Below are positions 434 through 33,100 of a stretch of DNA of 38,549 bases, piece after piece. Location: NCBI GenBank assembly GCA_003022925.1, contig PXRY01000021.1, forward strand, positions 1 to 38,549, given 5' to 3'. The DNA is from Halobacteriales archaeon QS_8_65_32. GTDB taxonomy: Archaea > Halobacteriota > Halobacteria > Halobacteriales > Halococcaceae. Position 1 is the first letter of the stretch, and each line of letters begins with the position of its first letter. The position numbers were made by a program, and so were the translations under genes. The notes under the pieces were generated by a model. The model worked only from the letters and a program-made list of their open reading frames with translations. It was not told the DNA's origin and did no database searches.

Positions 434-1045
434 CTATTCCGGCAGGAAGAAGTCGGGATCGTCCCCAGTGAAGGTAATCACCCGATCGCGCCGGAGCCGA
501 CGGACGTAGGTGAAAAAGACCCCTTCGCGCTCAGCCCGCTCACGAAGCGCGCTCGCCTTTTCGCTCTCGTAGTACGCCGGCACGCACACCGTACGCTCGG
601 TCGCCTCGTCGGTGAGGACAACGAGCAAGAAGACGACCCCGTTTTCGGTCGTTCGGTAGACCTCGTAGGAGCCGAACCTCGCCCCTTCCTTGATCCAAGA
701 CTCCAGTTGCTCGAACTCGGGGTCGGGGACGAGCACCTCTAAGCCGAACCGGTCGGTATCGGTATCGCTGGCAGTGTCGGCACCGTCCGTATCGTCGCCG
801 CCGTTTCCGCCGTCGCCTCCGGCCTCGCCCTCGCTCTCATCCCCGCCGGTACCGGCCTCGCGGCCGCTGCCGTCGAGCGTGGCGACATCGCCGGGGTGTA
901 ACTCCAGGACGTCCCACTCCGCCTCGCGGAACTCCGCCGCGATCGCTTCCATGTCCTCGATAACCCCCTCCCAGGGCTCGACGACGCGATCGAACGGGTT
1001 CGGAACGTCTTCGGACACGTTTCGATACCCGACGTTCCGTCCCAA
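434..1045 (-). CDS. haloarchaeal hypothetical protein with acidic low-complexity linker
   Basis: 203 aa ORF with halophile-like composition ([28 protein letters not shown]); overlapping ORFs on the other strand have Arg/Ser-rich antisense character. Confidence 0.7.
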
Positions 1046-1107
1046 ATAGTTTGCGTCCCGGTGGCCCGAGCCGACAGGACCACGACGCCACGGGGGCCGA
1101 CGCCAAG

Positions 1108-1118
1108 CGTATATACGG
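1108..1118 (+). promoter_or_regulatory. candidate TATA box for ABC transporter operon
   Basis: cgtatatacgg about 25-30 nt upstream of the GTG start at 1138, consistent with a leaderless haloarchaeal transcript. Confidence 0.4.
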
Positions 1119-1137
1119 CGGCTCCGAACGCCCCGGC

Positions 1138-3747
1138 GTGAGCGACAGGAGTCTGCTCTCGATTTCGGATCTGCGGACGCACTTCGATTCCGATCGGGGC
1201 ACGGTGAAGGCCGTCGACGGGATCGACCTCGCGATCGGCGAGGGCGAGACGGTGGGACTCGTCGGCGAGTCGGGCTCGGGCAAGTCGGTGACCGCGCTGT
1301 CGGCGATGGGGCTGATCGACCGGCCCGGCCGGATCACGGGCGGCGACGTGACGCTTCGCGCGCCCGATCTCGCCCGCGAGTTCGCTAATCGCCGCAAACG
1401 AGCGGGGGAGTTCGTCGATCTCGAAGCCGGGACGGTCTCGCTGACCGACGCCCCCGAAGAAGCCCTGCGGCGGGTTCGCGGCGCGGAGATGAGTATGATC
1501 TTTCAGGACCCGATGACCTCGCTCAACCCCGCGGTCACCGTTGGCGAGCAGGTAGCCGAAAGCCTCCGCCTGCACCGTTACGGCAGCCGGAAACGCGACT
1601 CCTGGCTGAACGCGCTACGCGAAATTACGCCGCGGATCGGGGGTGGGACCGACGAAGCGGTCACCGCCGAGACGATCGAGGCGCTGTCGGCGGTCGGCAT
1701 CCCGGAGCCGGCCTCGCGGATCGACGAGTACCCCCACGAGTTCTCGGGGGGGATGCGCCAGCGGGTGCTCATCGCCATCGCGCTCGCCTGCCGGCCTCGG
1801 CTGTTGATCGCCGACGAACCCACCACCGCCCTCGACGTCACGATCCAGGCCCAGATTATCGATCTGATCGACGACCTCCAAGAAGAGATGGGGATGTCGG
1901 TACTGTTCATTACCCACGACTTGGGTGTGATCGCCGAGGTCGCCGACCGCGTCGCCGTGATGTACGCCGGCGAGATCGTCGAAGAAGGGCCGGTCGACGA
2001 GATATTTTCGAACCCCTCTCATCCTTATACGTACGCGCTGCTCAAGTCGATCCCCCGCGAGGACTCCGGCCGACTGACCCCGATCGAGGGCAACGTCCCC
2101 GATCTAGTCGATCTCCCCGAGGGGTGTCACTTCGCGCCGCGGTGTCCCTGGGCGAAAGCGGAGTGTCGCGAAGGCGAGATTCCCTTTCTGGACCACGGTC
2201 CCGAGACCGTCGACCATCGCGCGAAGTGCGTGCTCGAGGAGTTCGACACGGCGGCGTATGCCGACGATCGTAACGGACTACCCGCAGGCGAGCGCGGCGC
2301 TTCGAGTGCCCGGGACACCCGGAGCGCTCGGAGCGGACGCACGCAGGACGAGCCGCTGGTCGAAGTCAAGGGACTGAAAAAACATTTCTCGCAGGCCGAC
2401 GACCTGTTCGACGAGTGGCTCTCGCGGGAGCGAAGGCCGGTCAGGGCCGTCGACGGCGTGGACTTGGCCGTCTACGAGGGCGAAACGTTGGGCCTCGTCG
2501 GCGAGTCGGGCTGTGGGAAATCCACCACAGGACGGACGATCCTCCGGCTGCTCGATCCCACCGAGGGAACCGTCCTGTTCGCCGGCGAGAACGTGGGGGA
2601 TCTCGATCGCGAGGGGCTGCGTGAAAAGCGCCGGGAGATGCAGATGATCTTCCAGGACCCGCTATCGAGCCTCGATCCCCGGATGACCGTCGGGAAGACG
2701 ATCGCAGAACCGCTTTCGATCCACGACCTGCCTGAAGACGGCGAGGCCGACGCCGACGGGAAATCGAAGGGAGAATGGCGACGGGATCGGGTCACCGAAC
2801 TCATGGAGGCGGTGGGGTTGGAACCGAGCCAGTACGGCCGCTACCCCCACGAGCTGTCGGGTGGTCAGCGCCAGCGCGTCGGCATCGCGCGGGCGCTCGC
2901 GGTCGATCCGGACTTCATCGTCTGTGACGAGCCGGTGAGCGCGCTCGACGTCTCGGTCCAGGCCCAGATCCTCAATCTACTCGAAGATCTCCAGGCGGAG
3001 TTCGGCCTCACCTACCTGTTCATTGCCCACGACCTCTCGGTGGTACGTCACATCTGCGATCGCGTGGCGGTGATGTACCTCGGCGAGATCGTCGAAACCG
3101 CTGAGACCGCCGAGTTGTTCGCCGATCCTAAACACCCCTACACGCGAGCGTTGCTGTCGGCGATCCCCGAACCCGATCCGGGCGCGGCGAGCGAGCGCGT
3201 GACCCTCGAAGGCGACGTCCCAAGCCCGATCGACCCGCCGTCGGGCTGTCGCTTTCGGACGCGGTGTCCGTCGGTCATTCCCCCCGACAACCTCGATATC
3301 TCCCAGGCGGCCTATCGCGAGGTGATGAACTACCGACAGCGCGTCGAAAGCGGTTCGATCGACGTCGAGGCGATCGTCGCCGAAAGCGAGGCGGAAGGCA
3401 GACCGACGCTGCAGGCGGGCGCCGACGGCGGTCGCGCGAGCGACGATCCGGTCGACAACGGTGGCCGCGTCGATGGTGGGCGAGCGGACAGCGCCCGCGG
3501 GGCGACCGGGACGGGCGAGGTGACCGGCGAGGCGCTGTTCGAGTTCTTCTTTACCCACGACCTCTCCGGCGAGGCGCGAACGGCCGTCGAGCGGTCGTTC
3601 GAGCACCTCGTTGGAGGCGACGCCGAGGCTGCCGCATCGGTGCTCCGTGACCGCTTCGAGAGCGTCTGTGAGCGGGACCGACCCGTACTGGGTGACGAAG
3701 CCCATCCCGCGGCGTGTCACCTCTACGAGCAACCCGACGATCGATGA
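1138..3747 (+). CDS. dipeptide/oligopeptide ABC transporter, fused dual ATPase (DppD-DppF type)
   Basis: Two ABC domains with Walker A ([17 protein letters not shown]), signatures ([18 protein letters not shown]) and oligopeptide C-terminal motifs ([19 protein letters not shown]). GTG start at 1138 chosen because the protein similarity begins there ([16 protein letters not shown]). Confidence 0.93.
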
Positions 3748-3794
3748 CGTTCCGATCGGTCGTGTTTAGTGTAGCAGCTTTCGGGAAAGGAGTT

Positions 3795-3974
3795 GTCGAG
3801 ACCGTCTTGGAAGGCCCTCGACACGCTCGGCGTCGCCGGGCAGGTCTGCTGCCCGGCTGCAAGCGATTTCTTCGGAATCGCCCTGGCTGCGAACCACGCT
3901 GCGCGCGCCGTCGGCGTGCTTGCGGGTTCTCGCTCGCCGACTGGTCGGCCTCTTTCAGTCCCGCCCGAACCGGT
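3795..3974. repeat. hairpin-rich intergenic repeat element, copy A
   Basis: Ends shared with copy B: GAGACCGTC...CGACACGCTCGGC at one end and GGTCGGCC(T/C)CTTTC/CTTCCAGTCCC(G/A)CCCGA at the other. Contains perfect hairpin GCCGGGCAG-gtctg-CTGCCCGGC and a cUUCGg tetraloop hairpin. Confidence 0.65.
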
Positions 3975-4079
3975 TCCAGTTGGCCTTCATCGCTTCGCTA
4001 AACACTGCCGTCCGACCGGCGCTTGATTGTAACACAGTGGTTCGATACAATTATTACCACGGTCTCTGGAGGGGTATCC

Positions 4080-5792
4080 ATGTCACGTGGTGACGACATC
4101 GATCGACGGAGCTTCCTGAAAGCGGCCGGTGCCGGCGCGGCGGCGGTTTCGCTCGCCGGTTGTTCCGGCGGCGGTGGCAACGGCGGCAGCGGTGGCAATG
4201 GCAGCGGCGGCGGAGGCGGGGACGACGGTGGTGGCGGCGGGGGCAGCGGCCAGGGCGGCACGCTCGTCTACGCCCGTGGCAGTCACTCGCCGACGCTCGA
4301 CTTCCAGAACTCGACGAGCGGCGAGGTCGCGAAGGTAACCGAACAGCTCTACGAGGCGCTGATCGGCTTCGTCCCCGGCGAGGCCACGCTCACCGAGGAA
4401 CTGGCGACCGAGTACAGCCTCGATGGGCAAGAAGTGACGCTCACGCTGCGGGAGGGCGTGACCTTCCACAATGGCGAGGAGTTCACGGCGCAGGACTTCG
4501 TCGCCACTGTCCGGCGATTCACCGATCCGAACTACGAGTTCTACGGCGGCGACGACTACGTCTCGGCGTACGGCCCCTTCACGTTCGGCGAGTGGATCGA
4601 CGACATCTCCGCCGAGGGCGATTATAATATCACTATCTCGCTCACACAGGAGTACGCCCCCTTCCTGCGGAACCTCGCGATCTTCGCGGCGGGTATCCAC
4701 TCCCAAGCCGCGATCGAAAACGGAAACGTCGATCTGAGTAACCAGCCCGTTGGCACGGGACCGTTCGAACTCGCGAACCTGGACGACGGCAACGAAGTCA
4801 TTCGCCTGTCGGCGTTTGGGGAGTACTGGGGCGAGGGGCCACAGGTCTCGGAGGTGGTCTTCGAGACGATCGGGCAGAACTCCACGCGCGCCCAGTCGCT
4901 TGCCAACGGCGAGGTCGACATCGCCGACGGCCTCGGCGCACAGGCCTCCCAGCAGGTCCAAAGTGCCGGCAGCGCCGAACTCCGGTCAGTCGAAGGTATC
5001 AACACCGGCTACATGGCCTTCAATTTCAACTACGAGCCGTTTCAAAGTAAGCAGGTCCGTCAGGCCATCAGTTACGCGATCGACACCCAGGCGATCGTCG
5101 AGAACATCTACGCCGGCTTCGCGAGCCAGGCCGCCCAGCCGGTGCCGCCGAACGTGCTCGGCCACAACGAGGAACTCCAGCCCTATCCCCGAAACCTGGA
5201 TCGCGCGCGCTCGCTGCTGCAGGAAGCGGGGTACGGCGACGGCTTTGCGTTCGAACTCGCGACGTTCCAGAACCCGCGTGGGTACAACCCCTCGCCGCTG
5301 CCGACCGCTCAGACCGTGAAATCGAATCTCTCGGAGGTCGGGATCGAGGTAACGATCAATCAGCAATCCTTCGATCCGTTCCTCGAATACACCGCCCAGG
5401 GCCAGCACGACGCGTGTTTCCTGGGGTGGTACACCGACAACGCCGATCCCGACAACTTCCTGTACGTCCTCCTCCATCCCCAGGTCGAAGACAGCGAACT
5501 CACCGAAGGACAGGACTGGGTGAGCTTCGACACCGAGGGGTACAACACCTCGAATCGAGCGGCATGGGCGAACCGGGAGTTCATGGGGCTCGTCGAGGAG
5601 GGTCAATCGACCTACGACGAGGCGACCCGTCGGGACCGGTATACCCAGGCCAACGCGCTGGCCCGCGAGGAAGCCCCGTGGGTGTTCATCGACCACGCAC
5701 AGGAACTGCGCGGCGTTGCGAACCGCGTGAACAACTACACCGTCGCGGCTATCGGCGGTCCGTACCTCGGCCTCGTCACGCTCGGCGGATAG
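4080..5792 (+). CDS. ABC transporter substrate-binding lipoprotein (SBP_bac_5 family, peptide type)
   Basis: Tat/lipobox N-terminus MSRGDDIDRRSFLKAAGAGAAAVSLAGC; family-typical HNGEEFTAQDFVATVRRFTDP and VRQAISYAID; adjacent to permease and ATPase genes. Confidence 0.93.
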   Translation: MSRGDDIDRRSFLKAAGAGAAAVSLAGCSGGGGNGGSGGNGSGGGGGDDGGGGGGSGQGGTLVYARGSHSPTLDFQNSTSGEVAKVTEQLYEALIGFVPGEATLTEELATEYSLDGQEVTLTLREGVTFHNGEEFTAQDFVATVRRFTDPNYEFYGGDDYVSAYGPFTFGEWIDDISAEGDYNITISLTQEYAPFLRNLAIFAAGIHSQAAIENGNVDLSNQPVGTGPFELANLDDGNEVIRLSAFGEYWGEGPQVSEVVFETIGQNSTRAQSLANGEVDIADGLGAQASQQVQSAGSAELRSVEGINTGYMAFNFNYEPFQSKQVRQAISYAIDTQAIVENIYAGFASQAAQPVPPNVLGHNEELQPYPRNLDRARSLLQEAGYGDGFAFELATFQNPRGYNPSPLPTAQTVKSNLSEVGIEVTINQQSFDPFLEYTAQGQHDACFLGWYTDNADPDNFLYVLLHPQVEDSELTEGQDWVSFDTEGYNTSNRAAWANREFMGLVEEGQSTYDEATRRDRYTQANALAREEAPWVFIDHAQELRGVANRVNNYTVAAIGGPYLGLVTLGG

Positions 5793-5891
5793 CTCCCGGA
5801 TACGCCTGACGAGTGACTGCGACGCGGCGGCCGACCGGCGATCCGATTCCCGGCGCAGCGAGCGGGACGTTTTTAGCCCTCCCGTTCGCGG

Positions 5892-6953
5892 GTGAGCGTA
5901 GTGATCTCGAAGCGGTTCGTCGCGAAGCGGCTGTTGCTCCTCGTTCCCGTGCTGTTCGGGGTCGCGACGCTCGTCTTCGCCATTCTCCAGCTCTCGCCGG
6001 GCAACCCCGCACGCGTGATCGCCGGCCAGCGCGCTTCGGAGGAGTTCGTCAGACAGATCGAACGCGAACTCGGACTGAACGACCCGATTTACGTGCAGTA
6101 CGGCCGCTTTCTGCTCGACGCCGCGCAGTTCGACTTCGGAAACTCCTACACCATTCAGCGAAACACCCCGGTCCGGCAGATCCTCCGGAACAAACTGCCC
6201 GTCACGCTCGAACTCGCGCTGTACGGCCAACTGATCGGCATCCTCCTTGGGATTCCTCTCGGCATCATCAGCGCCGTCAAGCAGGACACGATCACCGATC
6301 ACCTCACGCGTGTCGGCGCACTGTCGGGCATCTCGATCCCGATCTTCTGGAGCGGGCCCTTAGTGATCCTGGTGTTCGCGCAGTTCTTCGGGTGGCTGCC
6401 GACGAGCGGGCGGATCGACGCCCAGCGGTTTTCGATCGAACAGGTCACCGGGCTCATCACGGTCGATACGTTCGTCCAGGGCGTCGACGCGACGCTTTCG
6501 AGCGGCTTCGCGGTCTCTCACTTCGCGCCCTTCTTTTCGGCGGTCGAGCACATGATCCTGCCCGCAGCGACGATCGGCATCTACTCGATGGCGCTGATCT
6601 CGCGGATGATGCGCTCGTCGATGTTAGAAGTCACCAGACAAGATTACATCCGGACCGCCCGCGCGAAGGGCCAGGGTGCGAAGATCACGCTCATGAAACA
6701 CGGCCTTCGCAACGCCCTCATTCCAGTTATCACCGTCATCGGCATCCAGTTCGGCTCGCTTCTGGGCGGGGCAGTTCTCACCGAGACCGTCTTCGGCATC
6801 GCCGGGATCGGCACGCTTCTCGTCCAGGCGATCGAGGTCGGCGATTACCCCGTCGTCCAAGGCACGGTACTGGTCTTCGCGTTTCTCTTTACGCTCGTGA
6901 ACTTGGGGGTCGACGTCACCTACTCCGCGCTCGACCCGAGGATCGATCAATGA
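5892..6953 (+). CDS. ABC transporter permease (DppB type)
   Basis: Typical N-terminus (FVAKRLLLLVPVLFGVATLVFAILQLSPGNPARV) and EAA loop (RTARAKGQGAKITLMKHGLRNALIPVITVIG). Confidence 0.93.
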   Translation: MSVVISKRFVAKRLLLLVPVLFGVATLVFAILQLSPGNPARVIAGQRASEEFVRQIERELGLNDPIYVQYGRFLLDAAQFDFGNSYTIQRNTPVRQILRNKLPVTLELALYGQLIGILLGIPLGIISAVKQDTITDHLTRVGALSGISIPIFWSGPLVILVFAQFFGWLPTSGRIDAQRFSIEQVTGLITVDTFVQGVDATLSSGFAVSHFAPFFSAVEHMILPAATIGIYSMALISRMMRSSMLEVTRQDYIRTARAKGQGAKITLMKHGLRNALIPVITVIGIQFGSLLGGAVLTETVFGIAGIGTLLVQAIEVGDYPVVQGTVLVFAFLFTLVNLGVDVTYSALDPRIDQ

Positions 6954-7005
6954 ACACGAATGTATACACGAACGCGAGCGCGAAACCGAACGGACGGGCT
7001 CGACG

Positions 7006-7938
7006 ATGAGCACCGAAACCGATACCGGAGCCGAAGCCGGCAGGCGACAGGCGCGCGGGGTCGTCGAGCGGGTGCGCGCCTCGCCGTTTCTCTCGGACCT
7101 GCTCTCGAATCGGCTCGCGCTCGTCGGCCTCGGGATCATCCTTGCGATGATCGTGATAGCGGTCTACGCGCGGCTGTTCGTCGACTTGGAGGCGATCTCG
7201 CTCACGCAGTTCGGCACGAACCCACCCCAAGCGGCCCCGAGCGCGGAGTACCCCTTCGGCACCGACGGGCAGGCCCGTGACATCTTCCCGCGGGTGCTGT
7301 ACGGCGCGTGGTACGCCGTGCTCTATGGTACTATCACGGTCGGGGTCTCGACGATCGCCGGCGTCGGCCTCGGCACGCTCGCGGCCTACTTCGGCGACGT
7401 CACCGACAACGTCGTGATGCGATCGATGGACGTGTTGCTCGCCTTCCCGTCGCTCTTGCTTGCACTCGCGCTGGTTGCGATCTTCCCCGACGGCCTCGGC
7501 CTCTGGCGGGCGGTCGCGGCGCTCACGCTCGTCTACACCCCCCGGTTCGCCCGCGTGATCCGGGGCGCGGCGCTCGCCGTGTTGGAGGACGAGTACGTCG
7601 ATGCAACGGTGGCACTCGGCGCGGCCGATCCGCGCGTGATCGTCCACCACGTCCTGCCGAACTGTCTCGCGCCGATCACAGTACAATCGACCCTCAACTT
7701 CGGGCTGGCGATCATCGACCTCGCCGCCCTCTCATTCTTAGGGTTCGGCGCGCCGACGGGCACGCCCTCGTGGGGACTAATGCTTTCGAACGGCGTGGAG
7801 TTCGGCCTGCTCACGGGGATCTGGTGGTGGTCGTTTTTCCCGGGCCTGTTCCTCGCGATCACGGTATTGGGGTTCAATCTCTTGGGCGATGGCATGCGCG
7901 ACGCGCTCGACCCCCGGATGCGCGACGCCATCGACTGA
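7006..7938 (+). CDS. ABC transporter permease (DppC type)
   Basis: FGTDGQARDIFPRVLYGAWYAVLYG and EAA loop DATVALGAADPRVIVHHVLPNCLAPI; C-terminus LGFNLLGDGMRDALDPRMRD. Confidence 0.93.
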   Translation: MSTETDTGAEAGRRQARGVVERVRASPFLSDLLSNRLALVGLGIILAMIVIAVYARLFVDLEAISLTQFGTNPPQAAPSAEYPFGTDGQARDIFPRVLYGAWYAVLYGTITVGVSTIAGVGLGTLAAYFGDVTDNVVMRSMDVLLAFPSLLLALALVAIFPDGLGLWRAVAALTLVYTPRFARVIRGAALAVLEDEYVDATVALGAADPRVIVHHVLPNCLAPITVQSTLNFGLAIIDLAALSFLGFGAPTGTPSWGLMLSNGVEFGLLTGIWWWSFFPGLFLAITVLGFNLLGDGMRDALDPRMRDAID

Positions 7939-9927: not shown

Positions 9928-11553
9928 ATGAGACGGTCCCGGGTAGCGATCGGTAGTGTAATCGGCTGCGTGCTCGCGGTTCTCGCTCATCATGACGTCC
10001 TGGGTTACTGGTTTACCGGCGACGATACCATCCCGCTCATCGAAACGAGTCGCGTCACCTCCGGCCAGGACCTCGTTGCCGTCTTCACCAGCCCGCTGCT
10101 GCGGGGCACGCGGTTCGCAGCGGAGTTCGCGGCGTTCTATCGACCGCTCGCGAACCTCTCGTACGCCTTCGATTTCTGGATGTGGGGACTCGACCCGTTC
10201 GGCTACCACCTCACTGACCTGTTCTTACACGCTACTGCTGCAGGCCTCGTGGTCGCCTTCGTCAGCACGGCGACCGACGACGACCTCGCGGGTCTTCTCG
10301 CCGGGTGTCTGTTCGCGATTCACCCGATCACCGCCGAGATCGTGCCGATACCCGCCCGCCGACACGACGTACTCGCAACGGTCTTTCTGTTGTCTTCGCT
10401 GCTGTTGTTGCTGAAAGGACGGGACCTCTCCGACGAGAGCACTCGTCGCTACCTCGGGGGATCGGTTCTCGCCTACCTGTTCGCGCTCGCCTCGAAGGAA
10501 GTCGCAATGATCCTTCCGGGACTTCTCGCCGCATGGCTGTTGCTCGCCGCCGTTCCTTCGGTTACCGATGGCGACGCCGATATCGGAAGCGAGCTTCGAG
10601 ACGGCGCGAAGACCCTCGCGCCGTACGTCCTGGTTACGTTCGGGTATCTCGTCGTTCGAATCCGCTTGCTCGGCGGAATCGGCGGATACAGGCAGACGCC
10701 CGAGATCACCCCGGAAGCGCTCGGTACGGTTCTCGCCGACTACGTCATCAGTCTGGTCTATCCGGTCGATATCCTCGGTGTCGTCCCTGATACCGACGCC
10801 GCGCTGGTGTCGATCGTGTTATTGGCTTCCGCCGCGGTCGTCGTTGGCGGGACAGCGTACGCGGCGTTTCGGGCCGGCGGGCTACGACGCCTGCTCGCCT
10901 CGCGATACGGCCGGCTGGTCGGGTTCGCCGGCGCGTGGTTGATGGCACACGTCCCGCTGTTCCTCATGTCGCCCGGGCGCTATTCGGCGCGACACGGGTA
11001 CGTCTCGCTCGTCCCGTTCGCAGCACTCACGGCCGTAGCTCTCGTCGTTGCGGGGCGCGAACTCCGCTCGTCCGACAGCACCATCGACGTCGGGGCTGGC
11101 AGCGTAGCCGTCGTCGCTGGTCTCCTCGTCGTCTCGCTGTTGGCCGTTTCGCCGTTGATCCATCCCTACGACGGGTGGAAGTGTGCTGGCAGGATATCCG
11201 AGAGCGCGCTGGAAGGTGCCGCCGACGGGGCGGGTGATCTCCCGTCGAACGCGGTCATCGCTATCCTCGGTCTTCCGACCGACGTCGATCGGCCGCCGTC
11301 GACCGCCGAACCCAAGGTGAAGACGGTGAGTTACTTCCGTTCGTATACGGTCGCGTCCTGGATTCGGCTGCAACACCCCGATAGTTCGGTCGCGACGTAC
11401 CCGATCGGACCACCGATAGAGATCGACGGTGGCGCGGAGGTGACCGCGAACGTAGTCAGGCTGGAGGACAGGCGGTTCCCCAGGTTGTTTCTCGAATACG
11501 AGTCGCAGTCGCCGCGCTGCCTGAGCGCGGCTTCGTCCGAAGCGAACCCATAG
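9928..11553 (+). CDS. multi-spanning GT-C-type membrane protein resembling TMTC O-mannosyltransferases
   Basis: FYRPLANLSYAFDFWMWGLDPFGYHLTDLFLHA and CLFAIHPITAEIVPIPARRHDVLATVFLLSSLLLLLKG resemble the TMTC/DUF1736 core motif; paralogue at 30521..32284. Confidence 0.7.
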   Translation: MRRSRVAIGSVIGCVLAVLAHHDVLGYWFTGDDTIPLIETSRVTSGQDLVAVFTSPLLRGTRFAAEFAAFYRPLANLSYAFDFWMWGLDPFGYHLTDLFLHATAAGLVVAFVSTATDDDLAGLLAGCLFAIHPITAEIVPIPARRHDVLATVFLLSSLLLLLKGRDLSDESTRRYLGGSVLAYLFALASKEVAMILPGLLAAWLLLAAVPSVTDGDADIGSELRDGAKTLAPYVLVTFGYLVVRIRLLGGIGGYRQTPEITPEALGTVLADYVISLVYPVDILGVVPDTDAALVSIVLLASAAVVVGGTAYAAFRAGGLRRLLASRYGRLVGFAGAWLMAHVPLFLMSPGRYSARHGYVSLVPFAALTAVALVVAGRELRSSDSTIDVGAGSVAVVAGLLVVSLLAVSPLIHPYDGWKCAGRISESALEGAADGAGDLPSNAVIAILGLPTDVDRPPSTAEPKVKTVSYFRSYTVASWIRLQHPDSSVATYPIGPPIEIDGGAEVTANVVRLEDRRFPRLFLEYESQSPRCLSAASSEANP

Positions 11554-11599
11554 ACGGGGGCGTCCTCGGACCGATGTCGGTACCGTTATTCCGGGGCCC

Positions 11600-12940
11600 A
11601 TGTTGTCCGAGGGCATGGGTCGTCGGCGACGGATCACCGTGCTCACCGTGGTGTTCTGCTGTTGTCTGGCCTTTCTCGGCGTACAAGCGCTAATGAACGA
11701 CTCCGCCGGGAGCGTACGTGCCACTGAGGGCGAGACGTATCCGGGGAACACGCTCATTAGCGTCCAGGGCTACGGCGAGCGGAGTCCCGGCGAGAGCGGC
11801 CGACTGATCGAAGTCACACCCGAAGGCGAGGTCGTCTGGGAGTTCGCTCCACCGAACTCGCGCGTGTTCGAAGCCGACGTCCTCGATAACGGGAACGTCT
11901 TGGTCGCGGTCGGCACCAGAGTTCCCGCAGCGGAGTGCCCCGATGAGCACCTCCAACGGGAGGACGACCACTGTATCCGGAATCGCGCCATCGAACTCGA
12001 CGGCGACTCCCTCGAAAGCCAGCCCCAGATCGTCTGGGAGTACGACTGGGTAGACGAACAGATGTTCGCTCACGAGGTTCACGACGTCGTTCGCCTCGAC
12101 GACGGCCGGACCGCGATCATGGACATGGGTAACGATCGTGCAATCATCGTCGATAGGCGAGGGGAGATCACCTGGGAGTGGCGTGCCGAGGAACACCTTA
12201 CCGCCGGGACGCCGTTCTACAAGGAGTACGGCGGGCCCGAGCCGCCCGAAGACGGCGTCGACTGGACCCACGCTAACGACATCGAGCAACTCGAAAACGG
12301 CAACCTCCAGATGTCGATCCGGAACTTCGATACGGTGATCGAAGTCGATCGTGAGACCGGCGAGATCGTCGATACCGTCGGCCGGCCCGGCGATCACGAG
12401 GTCATGCAGGAACAACACGCCCCCAACCGTCTCGAGAACTGGGGAACGATCGTCATCGCCGACAGTGACAACAACCGAATCGTTGAACACGACGTAGAGA
12501 CCGAAGAGCCCGTCTGGACCTATGGAGGACAGGACCTCCTTCACTATCCACGAAGCGCAGAACGCCTGCCCAACGGCAATACGCTCATCGCAGACTCGTT
12601 CAACGACCGCGTGATCGAGATCGACGAGCAGGGGGAGATCGTCTGGGAGTACGAGGGTGTACCGTTCGTTTACTCCGCCGAACGGGTCGCAATCGAGAAC
12701 GGCCAGCGCGTCTCCGAACCCGGGGAAGGCGACGAGACGGTCCCTGGCTGGCAACTCGAAGGGGAGACTGCCGACCCAGGTGCCGTGGTCGGGAACCTCC
12801 GGCTACTCGAAGCGTGGGCTGCGTTCGTCCTTCCGGCGTGGATCGCCTTTCCGGAACTGATCGCACTGCTCGTCGGCACGCTCGCTGGAGTCGGTCTCGT
12901 CGTCCAGAGCAGCATAGCCTGGTGGGGCAAGTACAGGTAG
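11600..12940 (+). CDS. arylsulfotransferase (ASST)-like membrane-anchored beta-propeller protein
   Basis: Repeated GEIVWEYE-type blades, THANDIEQLENGNLQMSIRNFDTVIEVD and PNGNTLIADSFNDRVIEID; N-terminal TM anchor and C-terminal hydrophobic region. Confidence 0.75.
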   Translation: MLSEGMGRRRRITVLTVVFCCCLAFLGVQALMNDSAGSVRATEGETYPGNTLISVQGYGERSPGESGRLIEVTPEGEVVWEFAPPNSRVFEADVLDNGNVLVAVGTRVPAAECPDEHLQREDDHCIRNRAIELDGDSLESQPQIVWEYDWVDEQMFAHEVHDVVRLDDGRTAIMDMGNDRAIIVDRRGEITWEWRAEEHLTAGTPFYKEYGGPEPPEDGVDWTHANDIEQLENGNLQMSIRNFDTVIEVDRETGEIVDTVGRPGDHEVMQEQHAPNRLENWGTIVIADSDNNRIVEHDVETEEPVWTYGGQDLLHYPRSAERLPNGNTLIADSFNDRVIEIDEQGEIVWEYEGVPFVYSAERVAIENGQRVSEPGEGDETVPGWQLEGETADPGAVVGNLRLLEAWAAFVLPAWIAFPELIALLVGTLAGVGLVVQSSIAWWGKYR

Positions 12941-27144: not shown

Positions 27145-27765
27145 ATGAGTATCGAGGATGTGAAGCTCGACGTCGACGGCGAGCGCTACCTTGGACGGCT
27201 GGACGGTCCCGACGACCTGACTGAGCGGGGCGTACTGGTGATACCGGGTGCGGGCCACAGTCCCTTCGGCAACGTGTTCGACCGGTTCGCCGACGCGGCT
27301 ACGGAGGCGGGCTACTCCGTCGCTCGCTTCGAGACCTGAGAGGATTCGGACGACCTGGCTGAAAAGAGCGAAGCGGACTACGAGGCCGAGCTCGGTGCGG
27401 GCGTCGAGTTCCTTCGATCGCGGGGTTGTTCGAGCGTGGCGATCGTCGCGAAGAGCTTCGGCGGCCGTCTCGCGCTCACACACCTCCCGGAAGGGGTCGA
27501 TCGAATGGTGCTGTGGGCACCTGCGGTTCTCGGACCGTTCGCCGATCACGAACCGTCGATCGACGCCTCGGAGTTGGCGGAAATCGCGGTTCCGGTCCGA
27601 GTATTGCAGAGCGACGAGGACGAGGTGGTGACTGTCGGGAACGCGGCGAGCATCGCAGAACACCTGCCGAACGGTGACCTGATCGAACTGTCCGGCGAGG
27701 ACCACTCATTCTTGCACGACGAGAAGCGGATCGTCGAACTGACACTGGCGTTCCTGTCGGACTGA
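27145..27765 (+). pseudogene. alpha/beta hydrolase interrupted by in-frame TGA at 27337-27339
   Basis: Two ORFs in the same frame separated only by TGA: ...AGYSVARFET*EDSDDLAEKSEADYEAELGAGVEFLRSRGCSSVAIVAKSFGGRLAL...; predicted nucleophile (KSFGG), acid (LQSDEDEVV) and His (EDHSF) lie downstream of the stop. Confidence 0.8.
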
Positions 27766-30281: not shown

Positions 30282-30520
30282 ACCCGAAGGAGGAGGGCTT
30301 CGAGCAAAAACCTTCGCCGATGTGCCATACTCACTCACGGGTAGGTCACGGGGTTTCGACCGTCGGGGCGTCGCTGCCGGGAGCGCGACACGGAACGCGA
30401 CCCGGACAGACCCGTGGGCCGTCATATAGGGAGGTCGCCGCGGACTGCCGAACCGAAACACGACCGAAGGCCTGCGCTCGCGGGCAAAAGAGTGATACTG
30501 GCGTGTTCGCACATCGATAC

Positions 30521-32284
30521 GTGTCACTTCGCTCTTCGCTGGGCCGCGACGACGGGTCGGCGGGTCTCGTCGCGCTCGCCGCCGCCGGCCTCGTCTTCCT
30601 CGTCGCTATCGGCACCCACTACGAGGTGCTCTCGTACTGGTTCACCGGTAGCGACACCCTCACGCTCATCGAAAAGAGCCGAATGCGGACCCCAGCGGAA
30701 GCGTGGCAGGTGTTTTCGAGCCCGCTCATGTACGGGACGAACTTCTCCATCGTCGTCGCTCTCTTCTACCGGCCGGTGGCGAACCTCTCGTATGCCGTCG
30801 ACTTCGCGCTGTGGGGGCTCGATCCCTTCGGCTATCATCTGACCGACTTGTTGTTGCACGCCGCGGCGGCCGTGGGCACTTTTGCGTTCGTTCGCCGGAT
30901 CGGTAAGGACACCCTCGTCGCCTTCGGCGCGGGCTGTCTACTCGCGATCCACCCGATCACCGCCGAAGTCGTCCCCACCCCCGCCCGCCGTCACGACGTG
31001 CTCGCAACGATCTTCGTGCTCGGATCGGTGCTGTTGTTCGTCCGGGCGACGCGCGCCGATCGCTCTCGCTCTCGCCTCCGTCGGTGGGGCCTTATCGGCG
31101 GCTCCGTGCTCGCCTACCTGCTCGCCGTCGGCGCGAAGGAAATCGGGATACTCGCCCCGCCGCTCGTCGGGGCGTGGTTTCTGCTCGTCGCCTACGATCG
31201 AGACTACGGAATCGGGCGGACGCTGTGGCGCGGGGTGAAAATCACGATCCCCTACACCGTCGTGACCCTCGCGTACCTCTGGTGGCGCATCGAAGTGCTC
31301 GGCGGCCTCGGCGGGTATCGAGGCGGGCCCTGGAAGGTGAGCGAGCCGTTGCTCGCGATTGCGAGCAAGTACGTCTTGAGCCTCGTCTATCCGGTCGACC
31401 TCGCCTACTGGCTCTGGGGGATGCAAGTCGAACTCGTCCCCGGCGGTTTCTACGCGTTCCTCGCGGGCGCGTTCTGCCTCGTCGCATATGCGCTGTGGCG
31501 CGTCGAGGGCTACCGGGACGTCCTCGCGTCCGACCGGGGACGGCTCGCGGCGATGTCGATCGCGTGGTTGGTGATCTTGGGCGCAGTGTTCGTCAGGTTC
31601 GGCCGGTACTCCCTTCGCAGCGGGTACGTTGCGCTCGTCCCGACCGGAGCACTGCTCTCGCTGGTGCTGGTTTCGACCGGTCGGGAACTCGCCGGCAGGG
31701 TCGGGACCGGGAGCGACGACGCCGTCGTCGCCGGTGACGGAGGCGACGCCGAAGAACGAACTAATCCTGAGAAAGCGAGTACTGGAGAGTCGAGCGTCGA
31801 ACGCCGAACGATCGGCTTCGATCTCGGGACGATCGCGGTCTTCTGTCTCGTTGTCGTGCTTGTCGGCTCGCTCGTCTGGGTCTCGCCGTTTGTCTATTCT
31901 TACGACGACTGGGAGCGCGCCGGTGAGGTCGCTTCGGAGGGTTTGCCCGCCGCCGCGAGTGCCTACGAGGAGTCAGACGTCCCGCCACGGGCGGTAATCG
32001 CGATCGCCGGCATCCCGCGGCGGCCCGGTTCGCCCGGCGTGGCCGCACCCCGACCGCAAGCGCGGACGATCGCGTACTTCTATGCGAACACGATCGCCTC
32101 CTGGATTCGGCTCACTCAGCCCGATAGCAAGGTCGCGACGTACGTCGGGGGCCGGCTGGTCCCCCTCGGCGAGAAGCCGGTCGATGTCAACGCGACGATC
32201 CGGCAGACGGTCGACCGGCGTCACTACCGGATACGACTGCGATATCCGTTGGAGAACGCGACGAACGAAACGAGTGGTGCCTGA
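30521..32284 (+). CDS. multi-spanning GT-C-type membrane protein resembling TMTC O-mannosyltransferases (paralogue)
   Basis: FYRPVANLSYAVDFALWGLDPFGYHLTDLLLHA and CLLAIHPITAEVVPTPARRHDVLATIFVLGSVLLFV; shared C-terminal motif YFYANTIASWIRLTQPDSKVATY. GTG start at 30521 chosen by comparison with paralogue. Confidence 0.7.
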   Translation: MSLRSSLGRDDGSAGLVALAAAGLVFLVAIGTHYEVLSYWFTGSDTLTLIEKSRMRTPAEAWQVFSSPLMYGTNFSIVVALFYRPVANLSYAVDFALWGLDPFGYHLTDLLLHAAAAVGTFAFVRRIGKDTLVAFGAGCLLAIHPITAEVVPTPARRHDVLATIFVLGSVLLFVRATRADRSRSRLRRWGLIGGSVLAYLLAVGAKEIGILAPPLVGAWFLLVAYDRDYGIGRTLWRGVKITIPYTVVTLAYLWWRIEVLGGLGGYRGGPWKVSEPLLAIASKYVLSLVYPVDLAYWLWGMQVELVPGGFYAFLAGAFCLVAYALWRVEGYRDVLASDRGRLAAMSIAWLVILGAVFVRFGRYSLRSGYVALVPTGALLSLVLVSTGRELAGRVGTGSDDAVVAGDGGDAEERTNPEKASTGESSVERRTIGFDLGTIAVFCLVVVLVGSLVWVSPFVYSYDDWERAGEVASEGLPAAASAYEESDVPPRAVIAIAGIPRRPGSPGVAAPRPQARTIAYFYANTIASWIRLTQPDSKVATYVGGRLVPLGEKPVDVNATIRQTVDRRHYRIRLRYPLENATNETSGA

Positions 32285-32438: not shown

Positions 32439-33100
32439 TCAGATGACGCCGAGGACGAAGCCGAGACCCATGAGGATCAACACGACGCCCGAGAGCACCG
32501 GGAAATACGTAGCGTACCGGCCGAGTCGGTCCTCGTAGCGTTCGAACCCGGCGACCAGAAGCAGGGTGAGGGTAACCAGCGCGGCGATCACCGCAAGCGC
32601 GTAGACGAGCATGAGCGAGAGACACCGATCGGTCGCGCCGGTACAAAAGCCCAAAATCTGGAACTCCTCCTCGTGGGCGAACCCGAGGACGAACGCCGCG
32701 CTTGCGATCCCTGCGAGGCCACGCTCGTCGGCCGCCCGAGCTAGGTCAGTGTCGTGACCGTGATCGTTGTCGTGATCGTGCCGTGGTCGCCTCCGTGCCC
32801 GTGGCCGTGGCCCAACTCGCGGATGCCGAGCAGGATCAGGAGGCCGCCGGCGACGTAGCGCAACCACCCTAAGTTCCCGGCGTCGAAGCCTGAGGCAAAG
32901 AGCAGGAAGACGCCGACGACGGCGATCGAACTGATCAGGTGGCCGATCCCGATGAGCAGGCCCGCGACCGTGCCGGCGAGCCAGCGGTGGGACTTATCGA
33001 GGGCGTAGGCGGCGGCGATCGGCCAGCCGTGACCCGGTTCGGCCCCGTGAATAAGACCGATGACGATCGCCCCGGCGAACACCGACGCCGCGTCTGCCAT
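32439..33100 (-). pseudogene. nickel/cobalt transporter-like membrane protein (NicO/HupE-like), frameshifted in His-rich loop near 32780
   Basis: 5' part MADAASVFAGAIVIGLIHGAEPGHGWPIAAAYALDK...GIRELGHGHGHGGDHG; the -1 frame continues HDHDNDHGHDTDLARAADERGLAGIASAAFVLGFAHEEEFQILGFC...VLSGVVLILMGLGFVLGVI. Confidence 0.8.

Follow-up and report, generated by a model that had tools for sequence, protein, structure and literature searches.

The TMTC1-4 proteins are O-mannosyltransferases of the GT-C/PMT clan, for which seven sequence motifs have been listed (PMC7801869). In the Gtr systems, a GT2 enzyme charges polyprenyl phosphate with a sugar, GtrA is the proposed flippase, and a GT-C enzyme transfers the sugar outside the cell (PMC11127046). 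Sulfation by AST-type enzymes has been described at the level of the active site, which in Escherichia coli AST consists of His252, His356, Asn358, Arg374, and the sulfated His436, and the AST-type Cpz4 from Streptomyces prefers the sugar hydroxyls of glycosides (PMC13426309). In Hbt. salinarum, knockouts have identified VNG1056C and VNG1057C as S-layer N-glycan sulfotransferases (PMC11980604). As these two proteins are sulfatase-like, S-layer glycan sulfation there does not need arylsulfotransferases (ASSTs), and theirs is the only family of haloarchaeal S-layer glycan sulfotransferases with experimental proof that we found in the literature. Among the papers searched, none dealt with arylsulfotransferases of haloarchaea.

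In this study, we examined two neighbouring genes, here called P1 and P2, in a 38,549-nucleotide stretch of DNA (the window; contig PXRY01000021.1) from Halobacteriales archaeon QS_8_65_32. A first-pass annotation, made from the sequence alone, had read P1 as a TMTC-like GT-C protein and P2 as a membrane-anchored ASST-like propeller, and had proposed that the two act together in the glycosylation and/or sulfation of surface proteins. The two family assignments largely held up, and P1 and P2 as a dedicated surface-glycan module are not supported.

The GT-C homologue P1

P1 (9928..11553, plus strand) encodes 541 amino acids, and the 446-residue P2 follows at 11600..12940. They are flanked by pyrC, which encodes dihydroorotase on the opposite strand, and by the gene for pelota, an mRNA surveillance factor. 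Because codon scoring selects both (its training genes came from the window, with P1 and P2 among them) and full-length homologues of each were found in other genomes, they are genes and not chance open reading frames; the reading frames, peptides, shared strand, and 46-nt gap given in the annotation are all present in the sequence. The hydrophobic segments are many in P1, as had been noted, and are confined to the two ends in P2.

P1 itself gave no match in Pfam or NCBIfam, nor did single-sequence or profile searches with it against the PDB sequences. Among its 29 homologues, nine match the Pfam family PMT_2 (best 2.4e-12) and five match PMT. Within the searched genome contigs P1 matched two proteins, both of them bacterial TMTC-like TPR proteins, from Acidobacteria (L001) and the magnetotactic Ca. 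Magnetomicrobium (L002), with best-segment identities of 27% and 33% over part of the membrane region. The P1 profile aligned to these two proteins with an hhalign probability of 99.5% over 341 columns. The AlphaFold model of P1, built from an alignment of four sequences, is weak (pLDDT 48.7, pTM 0.55). The top 21 Foldseek matches of this model in the PDB are all either GT-C enzymes or complexes of which one is a part (probabilities 0.72-1.00), and its GT-C fold matches include OST, Pmt4, DPY19, ArnT, and PglB, although with E values of at least 0.015 and from a model of low confidence. We count these matches as support for a GT-C fold, short of proof. Judged by profiles and models, P1 is best classed as a GT-C homologue that is nearest to the TMTC-like proteins, much as the annotation had it.

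The motifs agree with this assignment in part. We compared P1 with the seven listed TMTC motifs and scored conservation over the 29 homologues. D32-D33 (10021..10026, plus strand, as for all features given here for P1 and P2) corresponds to motif M1 and falls in the predicted first extracytoplasmic loop. D33, the acidic loop residue expected of a GT-C enzyme, is invariant (29/29), and P1 is the sole member of the 29 with a DD pair, as in the TMTCs, whereas its relatives carry one D. Y71-R72-P73 (10138..10146; the YRP of M2) and K190-E191 (10495..10500; the KE of M4) are invariant, as are R145 and D147 of the RHD at 10360..10368 (the RxD of M3). In the WGLDPFGYHLT core (10183..10215), W86, G87, P90, G92, Y93, H94, and T96 are invariant. 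P1 has neither the SHKS of M2 nor the T/Q of M4, ERxxY is not conserved at the corresponding alignment position, and the DW motif was not found. The DUF1736 segment (PF08409) has no match in P1 or its homologues; a scan of the genomes for PF08409 also gave no match, with none in the control genomes either. No TPR match was found in the 29 homologues. We therefore rejected P1 as a TMTC proper, since DUF1736 and the TPRs are missing, yet by its motifs it would work like the TMTC-like branch of the GT-C enzymes.

The P1 family is patchy, being present in 13 of 61 near relatives, all within two genera of the organism's own family, and, across the order, in 15 of 251 genomes. Of the four copies in the QS_8_65_32 genome, three fall into ortholog groups common to all four genomes of the genus, and P1 is the fourth, which sits on a long branch in the trees and is present in this genome only among those compared. 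Three paralogues had escaped the first-pass annotation. One lies in the window itself (30521..32284, plus strand, alternative start 30320), where it is oriented divergently from a GTP_EFTU-type GTPase gene in a conserved neighbourhood, and two others are arranged in tandem on contig C99. Each of the three further genomes of the genus that were compared has an orthologue of the gene at 30320-32284, and synteny with the GTPase gene is kept in most. Other copies of family f1, to which P1 belongs, adjoin genes for DNA primase, GINS, GTPase, permease, or transposase, which give no functional hint. A Haladaptatus member is labelled 'hypothetical protein' in RefSeq, and the P1 family represents a small haloarchaeal GT-C set that automatic annotation has overlooked.

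Two other places in the window contain what look like broken genes. At 32439-33100, a homologue of a gene of 234-278 aa (cluster c8) appears as two fragments of 72 and 120 aa, possibly owing to a frameshift or an assembly error, and at 27145-27765 two short pieces on the same strand resemble, by eye, one frameshift-broken alpha/beta-hydrolase.

The ASST-family propeller P2

The relatives of P2 begin with MxRRxR, so that translation probably starts at M6 (11615), which would widen the gap to P1 to 61 nt. P2 matches PF05935 at 1.5e-15, with 57.5 bits against a gathering score of 24.2, and several of its plasmid relatives are named aryl-sulfate sulfotransferase in RefSeq. Its model, predicted from a single sequence, is of low confidence (pLDDT 57.3). 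The second and third fold matches of this model are Cpz4, and many non-enzymatic propellers (NHL/BamB) match as well. The genome contains about 12 ASST-like genes (12 match rows with P2).

Five residues, H161, H224, N226, R241, and H273, show no variation across the 24 aligned sequences and run in the same order as the five active-site residues of E. coli AST. H161 (12080..12082) would be the positional analogue of His252, H224-x-N226 (12269..12277) of His356 and Asn358, and R241 of the SxRN motif (12320..12322) of Arg374. H273 of the QHxP motif (12416..12418) is, by motif order, the candidate sulfated catalytic histidine and the analogue of His436. Alignment to a solved enzyme, Cpz4, backs H224, N226, and R241 only; H161 and H273 are placed by their order and invariance. 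An attempt to place H273 on a solved ASST by sub-alignment did not succeed, as NHL and Pizza propellers ranked above Cpz4, whose match stopped short of the QH motif.

P2 has an N-terminal hydrophobic anchor preceded by RRRR (11639..11695), a C-terminal hydrophobic segment (12848..12904), and an invariant cysteine pair, C113 and C125 (11936..11974), that may form a disulfide outside the cytoplasm. The end segments and the cysteines suggest an anchored extracytoplasmic domain. Taken together, P2 can be assigned to the ASST family with a candidate for the His/Asn/Arg/His set expected of a catalytic centre, in line with the first reading of it as an ASST-type propeller with hydrophobic segments at both ends.

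Genomic neighbourhoods of P1, P2, and their relatives

P1 and P2 lie on the same strand, and a gap of 46-61 nt is compatible with one transcript. However, among the loci compared, the adjacency is private to this genome. No ASST gene turned up near the P1 relative at any of the 20 loci fetched, within flanks of about 7-10 kb a side in most cases, and next to pelota the relatives have neither P1 nor P2. We therefore rejected the pair as a conserved operon; a gene pair not conserved in related genomes is also one of the outcomes that the first-pass annotation had itself named as refuting its proposal. Like P1, P2 is a long-branch copy found in this genome only, among those compared in the tree, and it is these two private copies that sit between pyrC and pelota. 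The closest group of P2, which includes a second copy in the same genome (C42), has its own conserved neighbourhood of GSDH, DUF7577, and CAP genes. Adjacent P1 and P2 were thus seen in this genome (G000) only, in a comparison that spans four genomes of the genus and a genome that is 78% complete, so that a rarer lineage bearing the pair could be missed. Given about 12 ASST-like and four P1-like genes, a rough estimate of the adjacencies expected by chance over some 30 P1-family loci is about 0.1, and the adjacency therefore argues only weakly for a shared function. The proposal that P1 and P2 act jointly finds no backing in these neighbourhoods.

Another ASST ortholog group (L072, L073, L074, L075, L077) has a VTT/DedA-domain gene close by, which lies upstream on the same strand in L073, and in three genomes of this group a GtrA gene is located about 1.3 kb downstream.

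The neighbourhoods of more distant P1 relatives are more instructive. In Haladaptatus pallidirubidus, a relative with 34% identity over 555 columns of the alignment comes third in a GT2-GtrA-GT-C series, adjoined by genes for a GDP-mannose dehydratase, an epimerase, and a DegT aminotransferase. The six genes form a cassette (gmd, epimerase, DegT aminotransferase, GT2, GtrA, and P1-family GT-C) at positions 806-7725 of locus L111 on plasmid NZ_CP085304.1. The same cassette is found in a genome of another haloarchaeal family (G396, L135:7503-14461), and the six genes of the two loci are 57-84% identical. We regard it as a candidate Gtr-type surface glycosylation system. Our literature search found no paper joining haloarchaea, GtrA, and glycosyltransferase. 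By analogy, this context points to a Gtr-type role for the P1 family, in which a sugar carried by polyprenyl phosphate would be passed to an acceptor outside the cell; it is the best available clue to the function of P1 and, with its GDP-sugar genes in two haloarchaeal families, makes that role testable. Neither GtrA nor the cassette GT2 lies beside P1, as judged by neighbourhood and tblastn; the GtrA genes of this genome are on contigs C73 and C34, and the nearest GT2 is on C31. In a separate archaeal genome (G100, L115:10004-11431), a distant P1 relative sits between a gene for a Wzx-type flippase and genes for a UDP-sugar dehydrogenase and an aminotransferase.

Proposed functions and comparison with known systems

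We consider it probable that P1 is a TMTC-like GT-C enzyme and P2 an ASST-type propeller, and that each represents an additional member of a multi-copy family, the two having become neighbours through genome reshuffling and forming no dedicated module. On the outer side of the membrane, P1 would most likely remove a single sugar from its polyprenyl-phosphate carrier and attach it to an extracytoplasmic protein or glycan, a step that in Gtr-type systems falls to the third component. P2, outside the cell, would most likely transfer the sulfuryl group of a sulfate ester to a hydroxyl via a histidine intermediate. We infer that the two are not functionally coupled.

The contrary reading, a co-transcribed pair in which P1 would glycosylate surface proteins and P2 would add sulfate to that glycan, draws on the shared strand and short gap, on the prediction that both proteins act outside the cytoplasm, and on the preference of Cpz4, the nearest solved sulfotransferase, for glycoside sugar hydroxyls. 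It appears distinctly unlikely to us in the face of the ASST-free P1 loci of the relatives, the location of the closest P2 relatives elsewhere, the pelota loci that contain neither gene, and the rough chance estimate; moreover, nothing links the product of P1 to sulfation. A still bolder version, in which the P1 family makes up the extracytoplasmic O-glycosyltransferases of these haloarchaea, drawing on polyprenyl-phosphate sugars, and P2 sulfates the sugar added by P1, is highly improbable.

Rather more room has to be left for two readings that concern the proteins singly. P1 may be a TMTC/PMT-like protein O-glycosyltransferase acting on surface proteins in this lineage, as the partial set of motifs M1-M4 and the presence of Pmt4 among the top fold matches would allow. 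This we doubt, as the family occurs in so few genomes of the order, even though O-glycans of the S-layer have been reported for Haloferax and Halobacterium, as DUF1736 and TPRs are lacking, and as the relatives beside GDP-sugar and GtrA genes would fit the decoration of a glycan equally well. About as doubtful is a P2 that serves as a non-catalytic beta-propeller for binding or as a scaffold. The size of its family, the many NHL/BamB matches, and a literature search that found no sulfotransferase test of the family in haloarchaea are compatible with such a role, but the active-site-like residues stay unchanged even in paralogues whose identity falls to 28%. We prefer two enzymes, each from its own family, that came to lie side by side by reshuffling.

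Compared with the described systems, each of the two proteins shows a partial likeness. The proven haloarchaeal surface-glycan sulfotransferases VNG1056C and VNG1057C are sulfatase-like, unlike the ASST propeller P2. With the ASST/AST enzymes (E. coli AssT and Streptomyces Cpz4), P2 shares the PF05935 match, the propeller, and the His/Asn/Arg/His order, but by its length and model it has no evident N-terminal beta-sandwich; in addition, it is hydrophobic at both ends and belongs to a multi-copy haloarchaeal family. P1 resembles TMTC1-4 in its N-terminal membrane GT-C region with the first-loop D, YRP, RxD, and KE, and differs from them in the DUF1736 match, the DW motif, the aligned ERxxY, and the C-terminal TPRs, all of which it lacks. 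In contrast to the bacterial TMTC-like TPR proteins, which have C-terminal repeats (tested as TPR in L001 and read by eye in L002), P1 ends in a short non-TPR tail. As for the three-component GtrA/GtrB/Gtr(GT-C) systems, P1 and the other fetched members of its own family f1 are without an adjoining GT2-GtrA pair, whereas two haloarchaeal homologues of P1 stand as the GT-C gene behind GT2 and GtrA. The P1-P2 pair itself matters little; the useful lead is the GT2-GtrA-GT-C cassette of these two haloarchaeal families.
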